Positions 30,573-60,036 of a DNA stretch of 64,000 nt are shown piece after piece. The stretch covers positions 2,189,945-2,253,944 of the forward strand of contig NZ_JACXZT010000019.1 in assembly GCF_014779595.1 (NCBI RefSeq), written 5' to 3'. This stretch comes from Halomonas sp. ML-15 (GTDB lineage: Bacteria; Pseudomonadota; Gammaproteobacteria; Pseudomonadales; Halomonadaceae). Positions within the stretch are counted from its first letter, which is position 1. Each line of letters begins with the position of its first letter. Position numbers and translations under genes: made by a program. The notes beneath the pieces are model-generated. The model saw nothing but the letters and a program-made list of their open reading frames with translations. It ran no database searches and was not told where the DNA came from.

Positions 30573-30766
30573 CGCTTTCCTGCAATCGTTGACCGAACGC
30601 GCTCGGGCCTTGAGTGCCCGTCGCGGGCAGACGATAATGCAGGGGCGTTTGAACGCCTAAATCACACATGCACCGTCACATGGTCCCGGGTGCCTGCGCT
30701 ACGCGAGTACGTAGGTCGGATCCATGGGGTGCGTGGAGGCCTAACCCGATTTATCAGGAGCCACCC
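30573..30766 (+). ncRNA. Long rpsB mRNA leader, candidate t44/S2 autoregulatory element
   Basis: About 190 non-coding bases lie between the putative promoter and the rpsB start. In gammaproteobacteria the map-rpsB gap contains the conserved t44 RNA element, part of the rpsB leader and linked to S2 autoregulation. The stretch 30690-30745 is rich in complementary G/C segments (GGGTGCCTGCGCTACGCGAG, TACGTAGGTCGGATCC) and ends shortly before CAGGAG. I did not fold it or match it to the covariance model. Confidence 0.5.
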
Positions 30767-58481: not shown

Positions 58482-58509
58482 TTGCCAAGCGCGCTCAGCG
58501 CGGTAGGAT
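58482..58509 (+). promoter_or_regulatory. Probable promoter of the aroG leader, with an inverted repeat in the spacer
   Basis: TTGCCA (58482-58487), a 16-base spacer and TAGGAT (58504-58509). The spacer contains the perfect inverted repeat CGCGCT-C-AGCGCG (58490-58502), a possible operator. Transcription would begin near 58516, about 22 bases before the leader ORF. Confidence 0.6.
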
Positions 58510-58537
58510 AGGCCCAACAGCACACTTGGAGCGACCC

Positions 58538-58666
58538 ATGACCGCTAGTCACCGCCAATTCACCAGCGCCGACGCGATGCCCGCCATCGTCGTTGCCGCG
58601 TGGGCCTTGGTAGGCGGCTATTGGTATTGGTTTAGCGCCGGTGTGCCGGCGATGCGGTCGCGCTGA
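58538..58666 (+). CDS. Aromatic-codon leader peptide of the aroG attenuator
   Basis: A 42-codon ORF with GGAG upstream. Codons 22, 28, 29, 30, 31 and 32 are Trp, Tyr, Trp, Tyr, Trp and Phe; the last five are consecutive (58619-58633). The stop codon (58664-58666) lies in the apical part of the 1:2 hairpin. A perfect intrinsic terminator follows 47 bases later, before a DAHP synthase gene. The run of rare aromatic codons in a short ORF before a terminator is the signature of ribosome-mediated attenuation. Three Trp and two Tyr codons suggest that Trp, perhaps with Tyr, is sensed. The peptide is hydrophobic, so a small membrane protein is the alternative reading. Confidence 0.72.
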   Translation: MTASHRQFTSADAMPAIVVAAWALVGGYWYWFSAGVPAMRSR

Positions 58667-58733
58667 CCCATCGCCAGGCACACCCTCCACGGGTTGCCTC
58701 CACCATCTCTCAGAACCCCCGGTCGGCAACCCG
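58640..58733 (+). promoter_or_regulatory. Attenuator RNA: competing 1:2, 2:3 and antiterminator stems
   Basis: The 1:2 hairpin pairs 58640-58659 with 58665-58684: GGTGTGCC/GGCACACC, GGCGATG/CATCGCC and GGTC/GACC, 19 bp with two single-base bulges and a five-base loop. The 2:3 hairpin pairs AGGCA and ACCC (58676-58685) with GGGT and TGCCT (58691-58699). The antiterminator pairs CGGGTTGCC (58690-58698) with GGCAACCCG (58725-58733). Each stem excludes the next and the antiterminator excludes the terminator, so 1:2 with the antiterminator means readthrough, and 2:3 with the terminator means stop. Confidence 0.72.
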
Positions 58734-58751
58734 ACCGGGGGTTTTGTTTTT
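58714..58751 (+). terminator. Attenuator terminator upstream of aroG
   Basis: Perfect 13-bp stem AACCCCCGGTCGG / CCGACCGGGGGTT with a CAAC loop, followed by TTGTTTTT. It lies 47 bases after the leader stop codon and about 197 bases before the aroG start. Confidence 0.92.
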
Positions 58752-58780
58752 GACATCATTGTCCAACGAGGAGACCGACC

Positions 58781-58942
58781 ATGTTCGACCCTATCGCCTT
58801 CCCCACGCTGTCATGCACCGCTTACTACCGTGCTTATGGCAGCTGGCGATTTAGCGGCGTCCGGTCGGCTCAGCTCGCCACCTCCGACCGGGAGACCATC
58901 GGTGGCCCCACGACCCGATGTTCGACACCCTGTACGAGGTAA
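58781..58942 (+). CDS. Second leader ORF with an aromatic cluster, ending at the aroG ribosome-binding site
   Basis: A 53-codon ORF preceded by ACGAGGAGACCGACC. Codons 15, 16, 19, 22 and 24 are Tyr, Tyr, Tyr, Trp and Phe. The TAA stop (58940-58942) follows directly on, and overlaps by one base, the GAGGT that serves aroG, so the two are likely translationally coupled. Downstream of the cluster CCGGTCGG (58861-58868) can pair with CCGACCGG (58884-58891), and ACCTC (58880-58884) could pair with the aroG GAGGT. Whether it is a regulatory leader or just a coupling ORF cannot be told from sequence alone. The second half of the peptide looks unstructured. Confidence 0.5.
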   Translation: MFDPIAFPTLSCTAYYRAYGSWRFSGVRSAQLATSDRETIGGPTTRCSTPCTR

Positions 58943-58947
58943 GCGCC

Positions 58948-60036
58948 ATGAGCATGACTCTGATCAAACCGACCCCCAGCGATGCCGCCCCTGCCGCTGG
59001 CCTGGCCGCGCCTGCTGGCGAAGCGATAATGGAATCCCCCCTGCCCACGCCCCAGGCGCTGCGCCAGCAGCTGCCCCTCGATGGCGAGCTACGTCAGCGA
59101 GTGGCCGCCCAGCGCGAGGCGGTCAAGGCGATTCTCGATGGCCGCGATGACCGCCTGCTGGTGGTGGTCGGACCCTGCTCGATCCACGATCCCAGGGCGG
59201 CCCGCGAATACGCCGAAAATCTCAGTGTGCTGGCGCGCCAGGTCGAGGACCGGCTGCTGCTGGTGATGCGCGTCTATGTCGAGAAGCCGCGCACCACGGT
59301 GGGCTGGAAGGGCTTGGCCTATGATCCGCACCTCGACGGTAGCGACGACATGGCCCACGGCCTCGCTCAGTCCCGTGGGCTGATGCGTGACGTGATCGCC
59401 CTGGGTCTGCCGGTGGCCACCGAACTGCTGCAGCCGATGGTCGCCAGCTATCTCGACGACCTGCTGGCGTGGACGGCGGTTGGTGCGCGTACTACCGAGT
59501 CCCAGGTGCATCGCGAGCTGGCCAGCGGCCTGGCGGCGGCGGTGGGTTTCAAGAATGCTACCGACGGCGGCATCCAGGTGGCAATCGATGCCATCCAGGC
59601 CGCGGCCCATGGCCACCGCTATCCAGGACTTTCCGACTCAGGACTGCCGAGCCTGCGCCACACCCCGGGCAATCCGTACACCCATGTGGTGCTGCGCGGC
59701 GGCCACGGCGCGCCCAACTATCAGGCCGAGCATGTGGCATCTACCCGCCGTGCGCTGGAGGCGGCGGGCCTGGCACCGCGGCTGATGGTAGACTGCAGCC
59801 ACGCCAATTCACGCAAGGACCACCGCCGCCAGAGCGAGGTACTGCTCGACGTGCTCGATCAACGTCTGGCCGGCGAGAAGGGGCTGTGCGGGGTGATGCT
59901 GGAAAGTCAGCTGTTCGAAGGGCGACAGCCGCTCAAGCCGGGCGCAATGCGCCACGGGGTCTCGGTTACCGATGCTTGCATTGGCTGGGAGACCACCGAG
60001 CATCTGCTGAGTCTGGCGGCCGAGCGGCTGCGCTAA
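58948..60036 (+). CDS. aroG: 3-deoxy-7-phosphoheptulonate (DAHP) synthase, class I
   Basis: This enzyme condenses phosphoenolpyruvate and erythrose 4-phosphate, the first step of the shikimate pathway to Trp, Tyr and Phe. The 362-residue protein has the class I core: LLVVVGPCSIHDPRAAREYA (about residues 70-89), MRVYVEKPRTTVGWKGL, ARTTESQVHRELASGL, VGFKNATDGG, VVLRGGHGAPNY, MVDCSHANSRKDH and GVSVTDACIGWE. An approximately 35-residue Ala/Pro-rich N-terminal extension precedes the usual start. It resembles the pseudomonad Trp-sensitive form more than E. coli AroG, by memory of the family. GAGGT supports the ATG at 58948. The attenuator upstream fits end-product control. Confidence 0.93.
   Translation: MSMTLIKPTPSDAAPAAGLAAPAGEAIMESPLPTPQALRQQLPLDGELRQRVAAQREAVKAILDGRDDRLLVVVGPCSIHDPRAAREYAENLSVLARQVEDRLLLVMRVYVEKPRTTVGWKGLAYDPHLDGSDDMAHGLAQSRGLMRDVIALGLPVATELLQPMVASYLDDLLAWTAVGARTTESQVHRELASGLAAAVGFKNATDGGIQVAIDAIQAAAHGHRYPGLSDSGLPSLRHTPGNPYTHVVLRGGHGAPNYQAEHVASTRRALEAAGLAPRLMVDCSHANSRKDHRRQSEVLLDVLDQRLAGEKGLCGVMLESQLFEGRQPLKPGAMRHGVSVTDACIGWETTEHLLSLAAERLR

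Follow-up and report, generated by a model that had tools for sequence, protein, structure and literature searches.

The window, by which we mean the whole 64,000-nucleotide stretch of Halomonas sp. ML-15 DNA analysed here, carries a type I DAHP synthase gene behind a compound leader. From 5' to 3', the leader comprises a short reading frame (ORF1), the helices 1:2, 2:3 and 3:4, a terminator, a second short reading frame (ORF2) and the helices of a pseudoknot, and it ends at the DAHP synthase gene. The start codon assigned to this gene is inferred, and another in-frame start is possible at 58918. The features, in window coordinates, are as follows.

58482-58509, + strand: sigma-70-like leader promoter, TTGCCA-16-TAGGAT (consensus scan 9/12, weak)
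58538-58666, + strand: ORF1, first leader peptide, 42 aa, MTASHRQ..GGYWYWFSAGVPAMRSR; SD GGAG at 58528-58531
58619-58633, + strand: ORF1 aromatic run Tyr-Trp-Tyr-Trp-Phe, TAT TGG TAT TGG TTT (sequence, alignment A1)
58640-58647, + strand: region 1, pairs with 58677-58684 of region 2
58676-58685, + strand: region 2, pairs with region 1 or region 3
58691-58699, + strand: region 3, pairs with region 2 or region 4
58714-58750, + strand: intrinsic terminator, with region 4 (58725-58732) in its loop and arms (sequence, folding)
58781-58942, + strand: ORF2, second aromatic leader peptide, 53 aa, MFDPIAFPTLSCTAYYRAYGSWRFSGVRSAQLATSDRETIGGPTTRCSTPCTR; SD AGGAG at 58769-58773
58823-58852, + strand: ORF2 aromatic segment YYRAYGSWRF, ending TGG CGA TTT (alignment)
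58862-58890, + strand: helix S1, 58862-58868 with 58884-58890; 98.0 % of cells paired in alignment A3
58877-58906, + strand: helix S2, 58877-58882 with 58901-58906; 98.7 % of cells paired in alignment A3
58936-58950, + strand: DAHP synthase SD GAGG, ORF2 stop TAA (58940-58942) and inferred DAHP synthase start ATG (58948), adjoining
58948-60036, + strand: type I DAHP synthase gene, aroF/G/H family (TIGR00034 439 bits, PF00793)

The part of the leader up to the terminator, which we call stage 1, had been described in a first-pass annotation as an attenuator, and its claimed anatomy was borne out. ORF1 has 42 codons and a stop, is preceded by an SD and contains the YWYWF run at the position given. 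The proposed competing hairpin is present, as 58676-58685 is complementary to 58691-58699 with one bulged base. Helix 3:4 joins 58691-58698 to 58725-58732, and C58690-G58733 is a possible ninth pair, in line with the nine-pair antiterminator that had been described. Of the terminator arms, 58714-58726 matches 58731-58743 without a flaw over 13 bp, as stated, and a T-rich tract comes next. When 58510-58760 was folded, as the annotation had suggested, its energy was -128.5 kcal/mol compared to a shuffle mean of -92.6 (z -7.25; 0 of 200 shuffles as low), and this far more stable fold contained the 19-pair 1:2 stem; the figures of nine pairs for 3:4 and 19 for 1:2 refer to the window sequence only. 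The claimed promoter fared less well: a sigma-70-like match is there, but it is weak. An SD-preceded and presumably translated leader ORF, an aromatic codon run and a terminator with a mutually exclusive antiterminator, three of the hallmarks of an attenuator, are found in stage 1.

This arrangement is kept in relatives. All 30 of the best family matches have DAHP synthase after the leader, as do 54 of 60 further regions with weaker matches; the remaining six had no DAHP synthase within the piece fetched. By a strict test (a looser one could count ORF2), an aromatic ORF1 is present in all 30 best matches and in 53 of the 54 weaker-match regions that have the gene. Among Halomonadaceae loci with DAHP synthase, 83 of 84 have the aromatic block, the exception being L142. 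The pN/pS ratio of ORF1 is 0.52 in frame, and the two remaining frames give 1.0 and 0.81. The leader peptides vary outside the aromatic block. The helices were tracked as cores of eight pairs (1:2), nine pairs and one bulge (2:3) and eight pairs (3:4), using a search expression that fixes some helix bases and permits mostly transitions; 70 of 145 loci fit it, 63 of them distinct, and those outside the count are of Pseudomonadaceae type, have no leader of this kind or are variants from Halomonadaceae. Within these 63 loci, helix 1:2 is paired in 504/504 cells and shows 26 both-side changes, where shuffling gave a mean of 8. Helices 2:3 and 3:4 are paired in 549/567 and 485/504 cells, and their outermost pair is often broken (paired in 51/63 and 48/63 loci, respectively). 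For these three mutually exclusive helices, the covariation sought by the first-pass annotation is present, all three being kept with compensatory changes, and the loss of leader ORF or stems from relatives that it named as grounds for abandoning its reading was not observed: aromatic ORF1, helices and gene order are all retained.

We folded stage 1 with a ribosome masked onto it, its front edge assumed to lie 11 nt ahead; at the second Trp codon of ORF1, this edge reaches the base before region 1. For window RNAs ending at 58700 and 58712, stalls from Y1 to W2 gave P(1:2) of 1.0 and P(2:3) of 0, and a ribosome at the stop codon gave 0 and 0.98. Across 68 loci, median P(1:2) was 0.99 when stalled versus 0.0 at the stop, and P(2:3) was 0.0 versus 0.97. 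The switch from 1:2 to 2:3, as the annotation had envisaged it, was reproduced in 51 to 55 of the 68 loci. In 13, helix 1:2 was not reduced by more than half at the stop codon, and in the model two congeners of the window, L004 and L006, retain it there (0.79 and 0.77). At equilibrium, helix 3:4 was about equal in the stalled and stop states (mean 0.77 versus 0.72; 68 loci) and, in the window, the full terminator prevails in every ribosome state once transcribed, so the decision would have to be kinetic. The classical trp arrangement, in which the stalled ribosome covers region 1 and 2:3 is the antiterminator, is not what we find. The leader ORF, codon run, alternative helices and terminator of the claimed trp/phe-operon architecture stand, with a parity of the helices that differs from the textbook trp leader. 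Sequence, covariation and computation together support the anatomy and, as modelled, the 1:2/2:3 switch. Stage 1 is very likely a ribosome-controlled transcription attenuator, and we infer that it responds to amino acids.

An Rfam search of the window at the gathering threshold returned t44 only. Rfam family RF00627, 'Pseudomonas sRNA P15', spans the leader from aromatic run to terminator, and the window copy aligns to all 119 of its positions with 38.5 bits, short of the family's gathering score (70 bits), which 38 of 59 Pseudomonadaceae genomes attain. All 29 P15 loci fetched in Pseudomonadaceae have an aromatic ORF1 and lie directly upstream of DAHP synthase. Four of the five matches from a search of the class with P15, the window included, precede DAHP synthase and have an aromatic ORF; the fifth, L037 (28.4 bits), does not. 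The palindromic terminator also yields weaker opposite-strand P15 matches (L003, 27.0 bits; L012, 25.1; L009, 20.7). P15 appears to be the same leader as stage 1 of the window, filed by Rfam as an sRNA gene and not as an attenuator.

Between the terminator and the DAHP synthase gene lies ORF2, which contains ..AYYRAYGSWRFS.. and is conserved in Halomonadaceae and Pseudomonadaceae. Among 84 Halomonadaceae loci, 73 carry its motif, and among 29 P15 loci, 28 do; the motif is absent from genus g4 (11 of 11 loci examined) and from L142. Loci for the ORF2 statistics were selected by TGGCG[AC]TTT, which makes any conservation within this nine-base motif circular. The resulting table has 111 rows, with a few loci entered twice. 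Every row has an ATG with an SD of at least four letters (the start choice favours SDs), and in every row the stretch of 14 residues up to WRF contains three to seven aromatic ones, of which the search motif imposes two. From the ATG to WRF, pN/pS is 0.46 in frame versus 1.11 and 0.78 in the other frames; by this measure, ORF2 is under purifying selection. Neither ORF2 nor the pseudoknot (58781-58942) appears in the first-pass annotation. A frameshift at TGG CGA TTT into the DAHP synthase frame was rejected by inspection: the -1 frame meets TAG immediately, and ORF2 shares the frame of the gene in L008 but not in L009 or the window. The sole other TGGCGATTTARC in the genome, set aside as well, lies by eye within a membrane-transport-like frame. 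The genome's second DAHP synthase gene was rejected as a further case: no comparable leader adjoins it, and its sole upstream ORF with an aromatic cluster (..WYFF..), about 440 nt away, lies by eye opposite a sigma-factor-like frame.

Downstream of the ORF2 aromatic segment, helices S1 and S2 interleave to form an H-type pseudoknot, at a fixed spacing from that segment in the window and many relatives. A ribosome whose A site holds the ORF2 Phe codon would have its front edge, again taken as 11 nt ahead, on the base before S1. In alignment A3, all rows share the spacings 8, 1 and 10 nt apart from L010, which is misaligned there. The 8-nt and 10-nt loops have no conserved sequence, and the single junction U between the helices is the only nearly invariant unpaired base inside the pseudoknot. 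Compensatory forms of S1 were found in L109, L018/L032 and L010 and of S2 in L010, L123 and L134; L113 and L135 each have one broken S2 pair. L123, L134, L113 and L135 were filtered out of A3, within which S2 has no both-side change. Covariation of S1 and S2 is modest (6 cells and 3 pairs with both-side changes); a control slid by +3 had more both-side changes (10 cells, 4 pairs), yet only 44 % of its cells were paired. A scan of named sequences matched at least 119 stretches, 80 of which were examined. Among the matches listed, S2 is present in 65 of 65 distinct named sequences, with its 3' arm outside the search pattern, and 46 of the 65, all of pseudomonad type, have a pyrimidine-pyrimidine mismatch in S1. 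Recognition of ORF1 succeeded in 74 of 78 of the examined stretches; of the four that it missed, L178 at least (which contains L005) has ORF1. We also considered a ligand-binding pseudoknot. Metabolite riboswitches are expected to conserve the unpaired bases of a pocket, and A3 has variable loops without conserved bases, on which ground this candidate was rejected.

A covariance model of the pseudoknot, biased to Halomonadaceae and run with strict filters, matched 2 of 369 genomes of the class, both Halomonadaceae. In Pseudomonadaceae, it matched 5 of 99 genomes, all of one genus, and under this search the pseudoknot is thus missing from most genomes of the family. On the DAHP synthase tree, the pseudoknot needs three changes, which can be read as a single gain that predates the Halomonadaceae-Pseudomonadaceae split, plus two losses.

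In 54 of the 111 rows, all of them among the 77 from Halomonadaceae, the distance between the ORF2 stop and the DAHP synthase start is -4 to 7 nt, and seven of these 54 have a 4-nt overlap. In Pseudomonadaceae rows, the stop is 37-48 nt before the start (L094 is misassigned at 111), so occlusion by a terminating ribosome cannot be the same there. A leader stop at or just before the SD, a feature of rtpLP, is found in the window and in these 54 rows and not in the Pseudomonadaceae rows. Close stop-start spacing equally marks translational coupling, whose effect would be of opposite sign. We also examined access to the SD in 74 loci. The mean probability that it is unpaired was 0.464 with the pseudoknot versus 0.465 with the 5' arm of S1 covered; covering this arm raised accessibility in 21 loci and lowered it in 21, and pairing between a pseudoknot strand and the SD exceeded 0.2 in 25. 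Sequestration of the SD by the CCUCC-bearing pseudoknot strand, as in ermC, is attractive by eye and was rejected because the 74 loci revealed no consistent effect.

We propose that a pair of leader-peptide sensors for Tyr, Trp and Phe acts in series on one DAHP synthase gene, at transcription and then at translation, and we think this probable. When charging of aromatic tRNAs is short, the ribosome would stall in YWYWF with its front edge at region 1; helix 1:2 would form, region 3 would be left free, 3:4 would block the terminator, and RNA polymerase would continue. A ribosome at the stop codon would instead cover region 1, allowing 2:3 to form and the terminator to end the transcript, and the terminated product would be the short RNA that Rfam names P15 in Pseudomonas. 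Stage 2 would act on messages that pass the terminator. ORF2, its conservation and the two helices are there to be seen, and from them we infer the regulatory act. A ribosome that stalls where the ORF2 aromatic segment ends would sit directly before the pseudoknot, which would stay folded, and the DAHP synthase ribosome-binding site downstream would stay free. A ribosome that completes ORF2 would melt the pseudoknot, terminate atop the binding site and hinder initiation. The proposal in full is that two independent leader peptides each read Tyr/Trp/Phe tRNA charging, that the first decides transcription termination and the second, by way of a pseudoknot that meets the stalled ribosome at its front edge, translation of the same gene, that the arrangement predates the Halomonadaceae-Pseudomonadaceae split and that its first stage is already catalogued as P15; in this complete form, we see the case as evenly balanced.

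Several other accounts of the leader can be weighed against the same data. ORF1 and the terminator might be the sole sensor, with ORF2 a coupling ORF from which ribosomes re-initiate at DAHP synthase and a pseudoknot that tunes or insulates translation. The 54 closely spaced stops and starts, including the seven 4-nt overlaps, are typical of coupling, and mean SD accessibility is equal with and without the pseudoknot. However, this account leaves unexplained the aromatic content kept in all 111 ORF2 rows (beyond the two residues that the motif fixes) and the constant distance from ORF2 to the pseudoknot, starvation would lower DAHP synthase, and the close spacing is absent in Pseudomonadaceae; we consider it unlikely. 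ORF2 could alternatively provide a second control of transcription, for example by guarding the RNA against Rho-dependent termination or exposing it to it. By eye, a C-rich stretch follows WRFS in many Pseudomonadaceae, and no U tract follows S1 or the Pseudomonadaceae hairpins in the sequences inspected, making an intrinsic terminator there unlikely. The pseudoknot would then have no obvious role, however, and we judge this quite improbable.

H-type pseudoknots occur in known riboswitches, and this fact and the constant spacings would suit a ligand-binding riboswitch or a protein-binding site to which the aromatic codons of ORF2 are secondary. With 8-nt and 10-nt loops that vary and the lone U between the helices as the nearly invariant base, such an element is very doubtful. 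A view that dispenses with a cis sensor, in which the ORF1 RNA is a trans-acting small RNA or both ORFs encode functional small proteins, draws on the Rfam name and on the inclusion of P15 among the sRNAs detected in P. aeruginosa (excerpt of PMC2375449). It is hardly credible given that 29 of 29 Pseudomonadaceae P15 loci lie directly upstream of DAHP synthase with an aromatic ORF1 and that three mutually exclusive helices are conserved, and the small-protein version faces peptides that vary outside the aromatic block. We retain control by two leader peptides in series as our preferred reading.

DAHP synthase controls the entry of carbon into the shikimate pathway, and enteric bacteria regulate it through TyrR, TrpR and feedback inhibition. 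Here, the leader RNA seems to read all three aromatic products simultaneously, and to do so twice. If the serial model is true, RNA control of the shikimate entry point would be ancestral in Pseudomonas and Halomonas, both of which serve as production hosts; the orphan P15 RNA would gain a function; and the leader would be a natural example of a pseudoknot at the front edge of a codon-starved ribosome.

Attenuation of a DAHP synthase gene is already known; the first-pass annotation had been aware of no attenuator of exactly this design on such a gene. In Corynebacterium glutamicum aroR-aroF, a leader peptide with Phe-Tyr-Phe precedes the gene (Neshat et al. 2014, via PMC11802643), and ribosome stalling under Phe limitation raises aroF transcription (PMC11802643); this leader is treated also in PMC4046766. 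The C. glutamicum system resembles the window in having an aromatic leader peptide on a DAHP synthase gene, and the excerpts that describe it mention no tandem second leader or pseudoknot. A table of Shewanella predictions lists for aroF an 'attenuator sensing tyr-tRNA', sourced to Camakaris et al. 1980 on E. coli aroF-tyrA (excerpt of PMC2659441); the claim likewise concerns a gammaproteobacterial DAHP synthase gene, and the entry gives no leader anatomy. For the tandem leader, we found no printed account: the literature searched held none that we recognised of this leader, of P15 as a DAHP synthase leader or of a tandem aromatic leader, and a 2004 survey of proteobacterial attenuators might list it.

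The E. coli trp, phe and his attenuators combine a leader peptide, a run of cognate codons, alternative helices and an intrinsic terminator. In the textbook trp leader, the stalled ribosome uncovers 2:3 as the antiterminator, whereas in the window the stall would leave 1:2 intact and 3:4 is the antiterminator. The window further differs from the E. coli leaders in that its antiterminator pairs with the terminator loop region, its run includes all three aromatic amino acids and a second leader follows. Tandem sensing of one uncharged tRNA, at transcription and translation, was reportedly described for rtpA by Chen and Yanofsky in 2003 and 2004, and its second stage, rtpLP, is said to work by ribosome stalling. 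We know of no pseudoknot in that system; its first stage is a T-box, not a leader peptide, and the regulated gene encodes an inhibitor protein. The combination of T-box and rtpLP leader peptide belongs to Bacillus subtilis rtpA (anti-TRAP; excerpt of PMC11255114), and leader attenuators in general are described in PMC11802643. As in the window, two leaders stand before one gene in erm(A), erm(B) and erm(D), where, according to excerpts of PMC8274638, macrolide-stalled ribosomes act translationally on resistance genes. In the LEU element of actinobacterial leuA, a leader ORF carrying cognate codons occurs together with a pseudoknot close to where a biosynthetic gene begins; in that element it is the codon run that pairs with the SD, and the authors deemed leader-peptide attenuation unlikely (excerpts of PMC1262725). 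Although the gene and the phylum differ, the LEU element and the window thus have in common a leader ORF and a pseudoknot.

The first-pass annotation had proposed an aromatic-amino-acid attenuator upstream of a DAHP synthase gene, and we found its leader peptide, codon run, helices and terminator where it had placed them. The downstream gene encodes a type I DAHP synthase (TIGR00034, PF00793). A congener of the window's genome, G012, is Franzmannia pantelleriensis (Halomonadaceae), with locus L005 falling within the named locus L178. A second aromatic leader in the same upstream region, ORF2, was absent from that annotation. The elements of the transcriptional stage (stage 1, built on ORF1) and of a proposed translational stage (stage 2, built on ORF2) in the window are:

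58538-58666: ORF1, preceded by GGAG
58619-58633: Tyr-Trp-Tyr-Trp-Phe codons of ORF1
58640-58647: region 1
58676-58685: region 2
58691-58699: region 3
58725-58732: region 4, within the terminator
58781-58942: ORF2, between the terminator and the DAHP synthase gene, its ATG preceded by AGGAG; includes the segment YYRAYGSWRFS
58862-58868 with 58884-58890: helix S1, starting 9 nt after the Phe codon
58877-58882 with 58901-58906: helix S2, interleaved with S1

Folding gave -13.3, -12.0 and -12.4 kcal/mol for the mutually exclusive helices 1:2, 2:3 and 3:4, and -26.9 kcal/mol for the terminator downstream of them. The aromatic blocks of both leaders end in TTT AGC (TGG TTT AGC, 58628-58636; TGG CGA TTT AGC, 58844-58855), and these endings are mostly conserved at synonymous positions, an observation that is partly circular for ORF2. 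The 3' half of the stage 1 element weakly matched RF01678 ('Pseudomonas sRNA P37'; 26.8 bits, gathering 50, E 0.11; positions 1653-1712 of L003, the window copy), and a t44 RNA (RF00127, 70 bits) at 30645-30745 bears no relation to the leader.

Alignment across Halomonadaceae bore out conservation and covariation of the proposed attenuator. In a family search with ORF1, all 30 best loci had an aromatic ORF1 with DAHP synthase downstream. Among weaker matches, DAHP synthase was within reach in 54 of 60 additional fetched regions, and 53 of these 54 carried ORF1 by a strict test, the exception being L142. Across 63 distinct loci fitting the motif expression, helices 1:2, 2:3 and 3:4 were paired in 504/504, 549/567 and 485/504 cells, proportions that are flattering because the expression fixes some bases. 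Changes on both sides of a pair are a better measure, with the proviso that relatedness survives shuffling: they numbered 26 for 1:2 (shuffled mean 8.0, maximum 14), 10 for 2:3 (4.3, 9) and 8 for 3:4 (1.7, 5). In a typical set-wide change, 15 loci have GGTGTGCC / AGGCACACCC / GGGTTGCCT / GGCAACCC and 3 loci have GGCGTGCC / AGGCACGCCC / GGGCTGCCT / GGCAGCCC. The pN/pS of ORF1 was 0.52 in frame compared to 1.0 and 0.81 in the other frames.

The annotation had reasoned that a ribosome stalled at the aromatic codons leaves 1:2 intact and that one reaching the stop codon melts it, allowing 2:3. We folded the leader while keeping unpaired a stretch from 17 nt 5' to 11 nt 3' of the first A-site base, an assumed ribosome size, and this model reproduced the logic in the window and most of 68 loci. 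In the window (RNA ends 58700 and 58712), a stall at any of the two Tyr and two Trp codons gave P(1:2) 1.0 and P(2:3) 0.0, and a stall at the Phe codon 0.62 and at most 0.09; once the ribosome had reached the stop codon, the values were 0.0 for 1:2 and 0.98 for 2:3. Between the stalled and the stop state, median P(1:2) over the 68 loci fell from 0.99 to 0.0 and median P(2:3) rose from 0.0 to 0.97; the fall in 1:2 exceeded one half in 55 loci and the rise in 2:3 did so in 51. The parity differs from that of the trp leader: here it is an intact first hairpin that signals ON. At equilibrium, 3:4 was nearly the same in the two states (0.77 stalled versus 0.72 at the stop, 68 loci), and the complete terminator outcompeted the alternatives in every state; the choice between 3:4 and terminator must rest on the order of helix formation. 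There is no clear prediction for an untranslated leader, because the window shifts from 2:3 (0.84 at RNA end 58700) to 1:2 slightly later (0.96 at 58712), while the 68 loci favor 1:2 (median 0.97).

With Rfam matches below threshold included, RF00627 ('Pseudomonas sRNA P15', gathering score 70) aligned over all 119 positions in each of the four loci scanned, with 39.8 bits in L012, 38.5 in the window copy, 30.2 in L009 and a non-significant 25.7 in L020 (E 0.062). Of 59 Pseudomonadaceae genomes searched, 41 contained P15 and 38 had it above the gathering score, and all 29 newly fetched P15 loci had an aromatic ORF1 (e.g. GYYFGYWFSHRRA) followed by DAHP synthase. A class-wide search gave matches in 5/274 genomes and in none of 14 control genomes; four of these matches, including that in the window, lie upstream of DAHP synthase, unlike the one in L037 (28.4 bits). 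We conclude that P15 and the terminated leader of the DAHP synthase gene are one RNA. An excerpt of PMC2375449 lists P15 among sRNAs detected in P. aeruginosa, and we infer the same identity there. Unrelated-looking aromatic leaders lie upstream of DAHP synthase in other families of the order (L052 1160-1297, FFWWFGYGFYFS; L062 1154-1351, VYWYFAEYFFGYYFS), and terminator-like hairpins come next; attenuation of DAHP synthase by aromatic leaders may thus extend beyond P15.

ORF2 takes forms such as DYYGWGYGWRFS in Halomonadaceae and YYRYYRNSDWRFS in Pseudomonadaceae. Its motif was present in 29/30 best Halomonadaceae loci, 44/54 additional loci and 28/29 P15 loci, the remaining one (L095) carrying a WRY form. 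The 11 Halomonadaceae loci without it were L142 and ten from a single genus, g4; an eleventh g4 locus, L045, was fetched by another route. The g4 loci that keep ORF1 and lack the ORF2 motif are L023, L045, L115, L119, L136, L140, L144, L152, L154, L155 and L156, a natural absence of stage 2 usable for comparison. From ATG to WRF, pN/pS was 0.46 in frame, while the two alternative frames gave 1.11 and 0.78. The ATG had an SD four or more letters long in 111/111 rows, with a start choice that favors SDs.

The spacings of S1 and S2 (8, 1 and 10 nt) fit a putative H-type pseudoknot, an established geometry. The helices, with S1 at the same 9-nt distance from the Phe codon of ORF2, are present in Halomonadaceae and one Pseudomonadaceae genus, with Pseudomonas fluorescens, putida, syringae, chlororaphis and protegens among the matches listed. 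In 64 distinct sequences, 98.3% of cells were paired versus 97.6% shuffled (0/500 as high), with 6 both-side cells versus 0.9 (0/500) and 3 both-side pairs versus 0.9 (15/500). Sliding the partner 1 to 3 columns gave only 26-49% pairing; the +3 slide, with 10 both-side cells and 4 both-side pairs, nevertheless exceeded S1/S2, which calls for care with covariation in so conserved an alignment. The clearest compensatory cases are L109 (CGATCGG:CCGATCG), L018 and L032 (CGGTCAG:CTGACCG), L123 and L134 (ACCACC:GGTGGT), and L010, with both helices rebuilt. A named scan whose pattern excluded the S2 3' arm found, among the matches listed, all six S2 pairs intact in 65/65 distinct sequences; the third S1 pair was kept in only 19, and the other 46, all of pseudomonad type, had two pyrimidines there. 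DAHP synthase lay downstream in 78/78 named loci with enough sequence, again among the matches listed. The pseudoknot requires three changes on the DAHP synthase tree (63 rows); one gain before the Halomonadaceae-Pseudomonadaceae split and two losses would fit. Other Pseudomonadaceae retain ORF2 without it. In those inspected, a strong hairpin occupies the space from ORF2 to DAHP synthase, past the ORF2 stop and ending beside the SD of DAHP synthase; its arms in L072, L085 and L095 are complementary but quite different in sequence among loci.

The ORF2 stop lies -4 to 7 nt from the inferred DAHP synthase start in 54/77 Halomonadaceae rows, and GAGG, TAA and ATG follow in succession inside 15 bases of the window. 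In Pseudomonadaceae this distance is 37-48 nt in 32/33 rows, the start being misassigned in the other (L094). A model of SD sequestration was tested by computation and failed. The closest precedent for stage 2 is the anti-TRAP leader of B. subtilis, in which a terminating leader ribosome blocks the next SD. By analogy, a ribosome completing ORF2 would hinder initiation at DAHP synthase, and one stalled in ORF2 would not. The main rival is translational coupling of ORF2 to DAHP synthase, which predicts the opposite sign. According to excerpts of PMC11255114, the anti-TRAP leader senses uncharged tRNA-Trp in tandem, through transcription and translation, and ribosome stalling depends on tRNA.

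A search of full-text literature, with most subscription papers outside it, found no account of two aromatic leaders in tandem, the second with a pseudoknot. Stage 1 is not the first DAHP synthase attenuator, since one is already known in Corynebacterium glutamicum (excerpts of PMC11802643 and PMC4046766) and a claim of tyrosine attenuation has been made for enteric aroF (excerpt of PMC2659441). What stage 1 adds to these systems is that the orphan Rfam family P15 is now tied to DAHP synthase attenuation.
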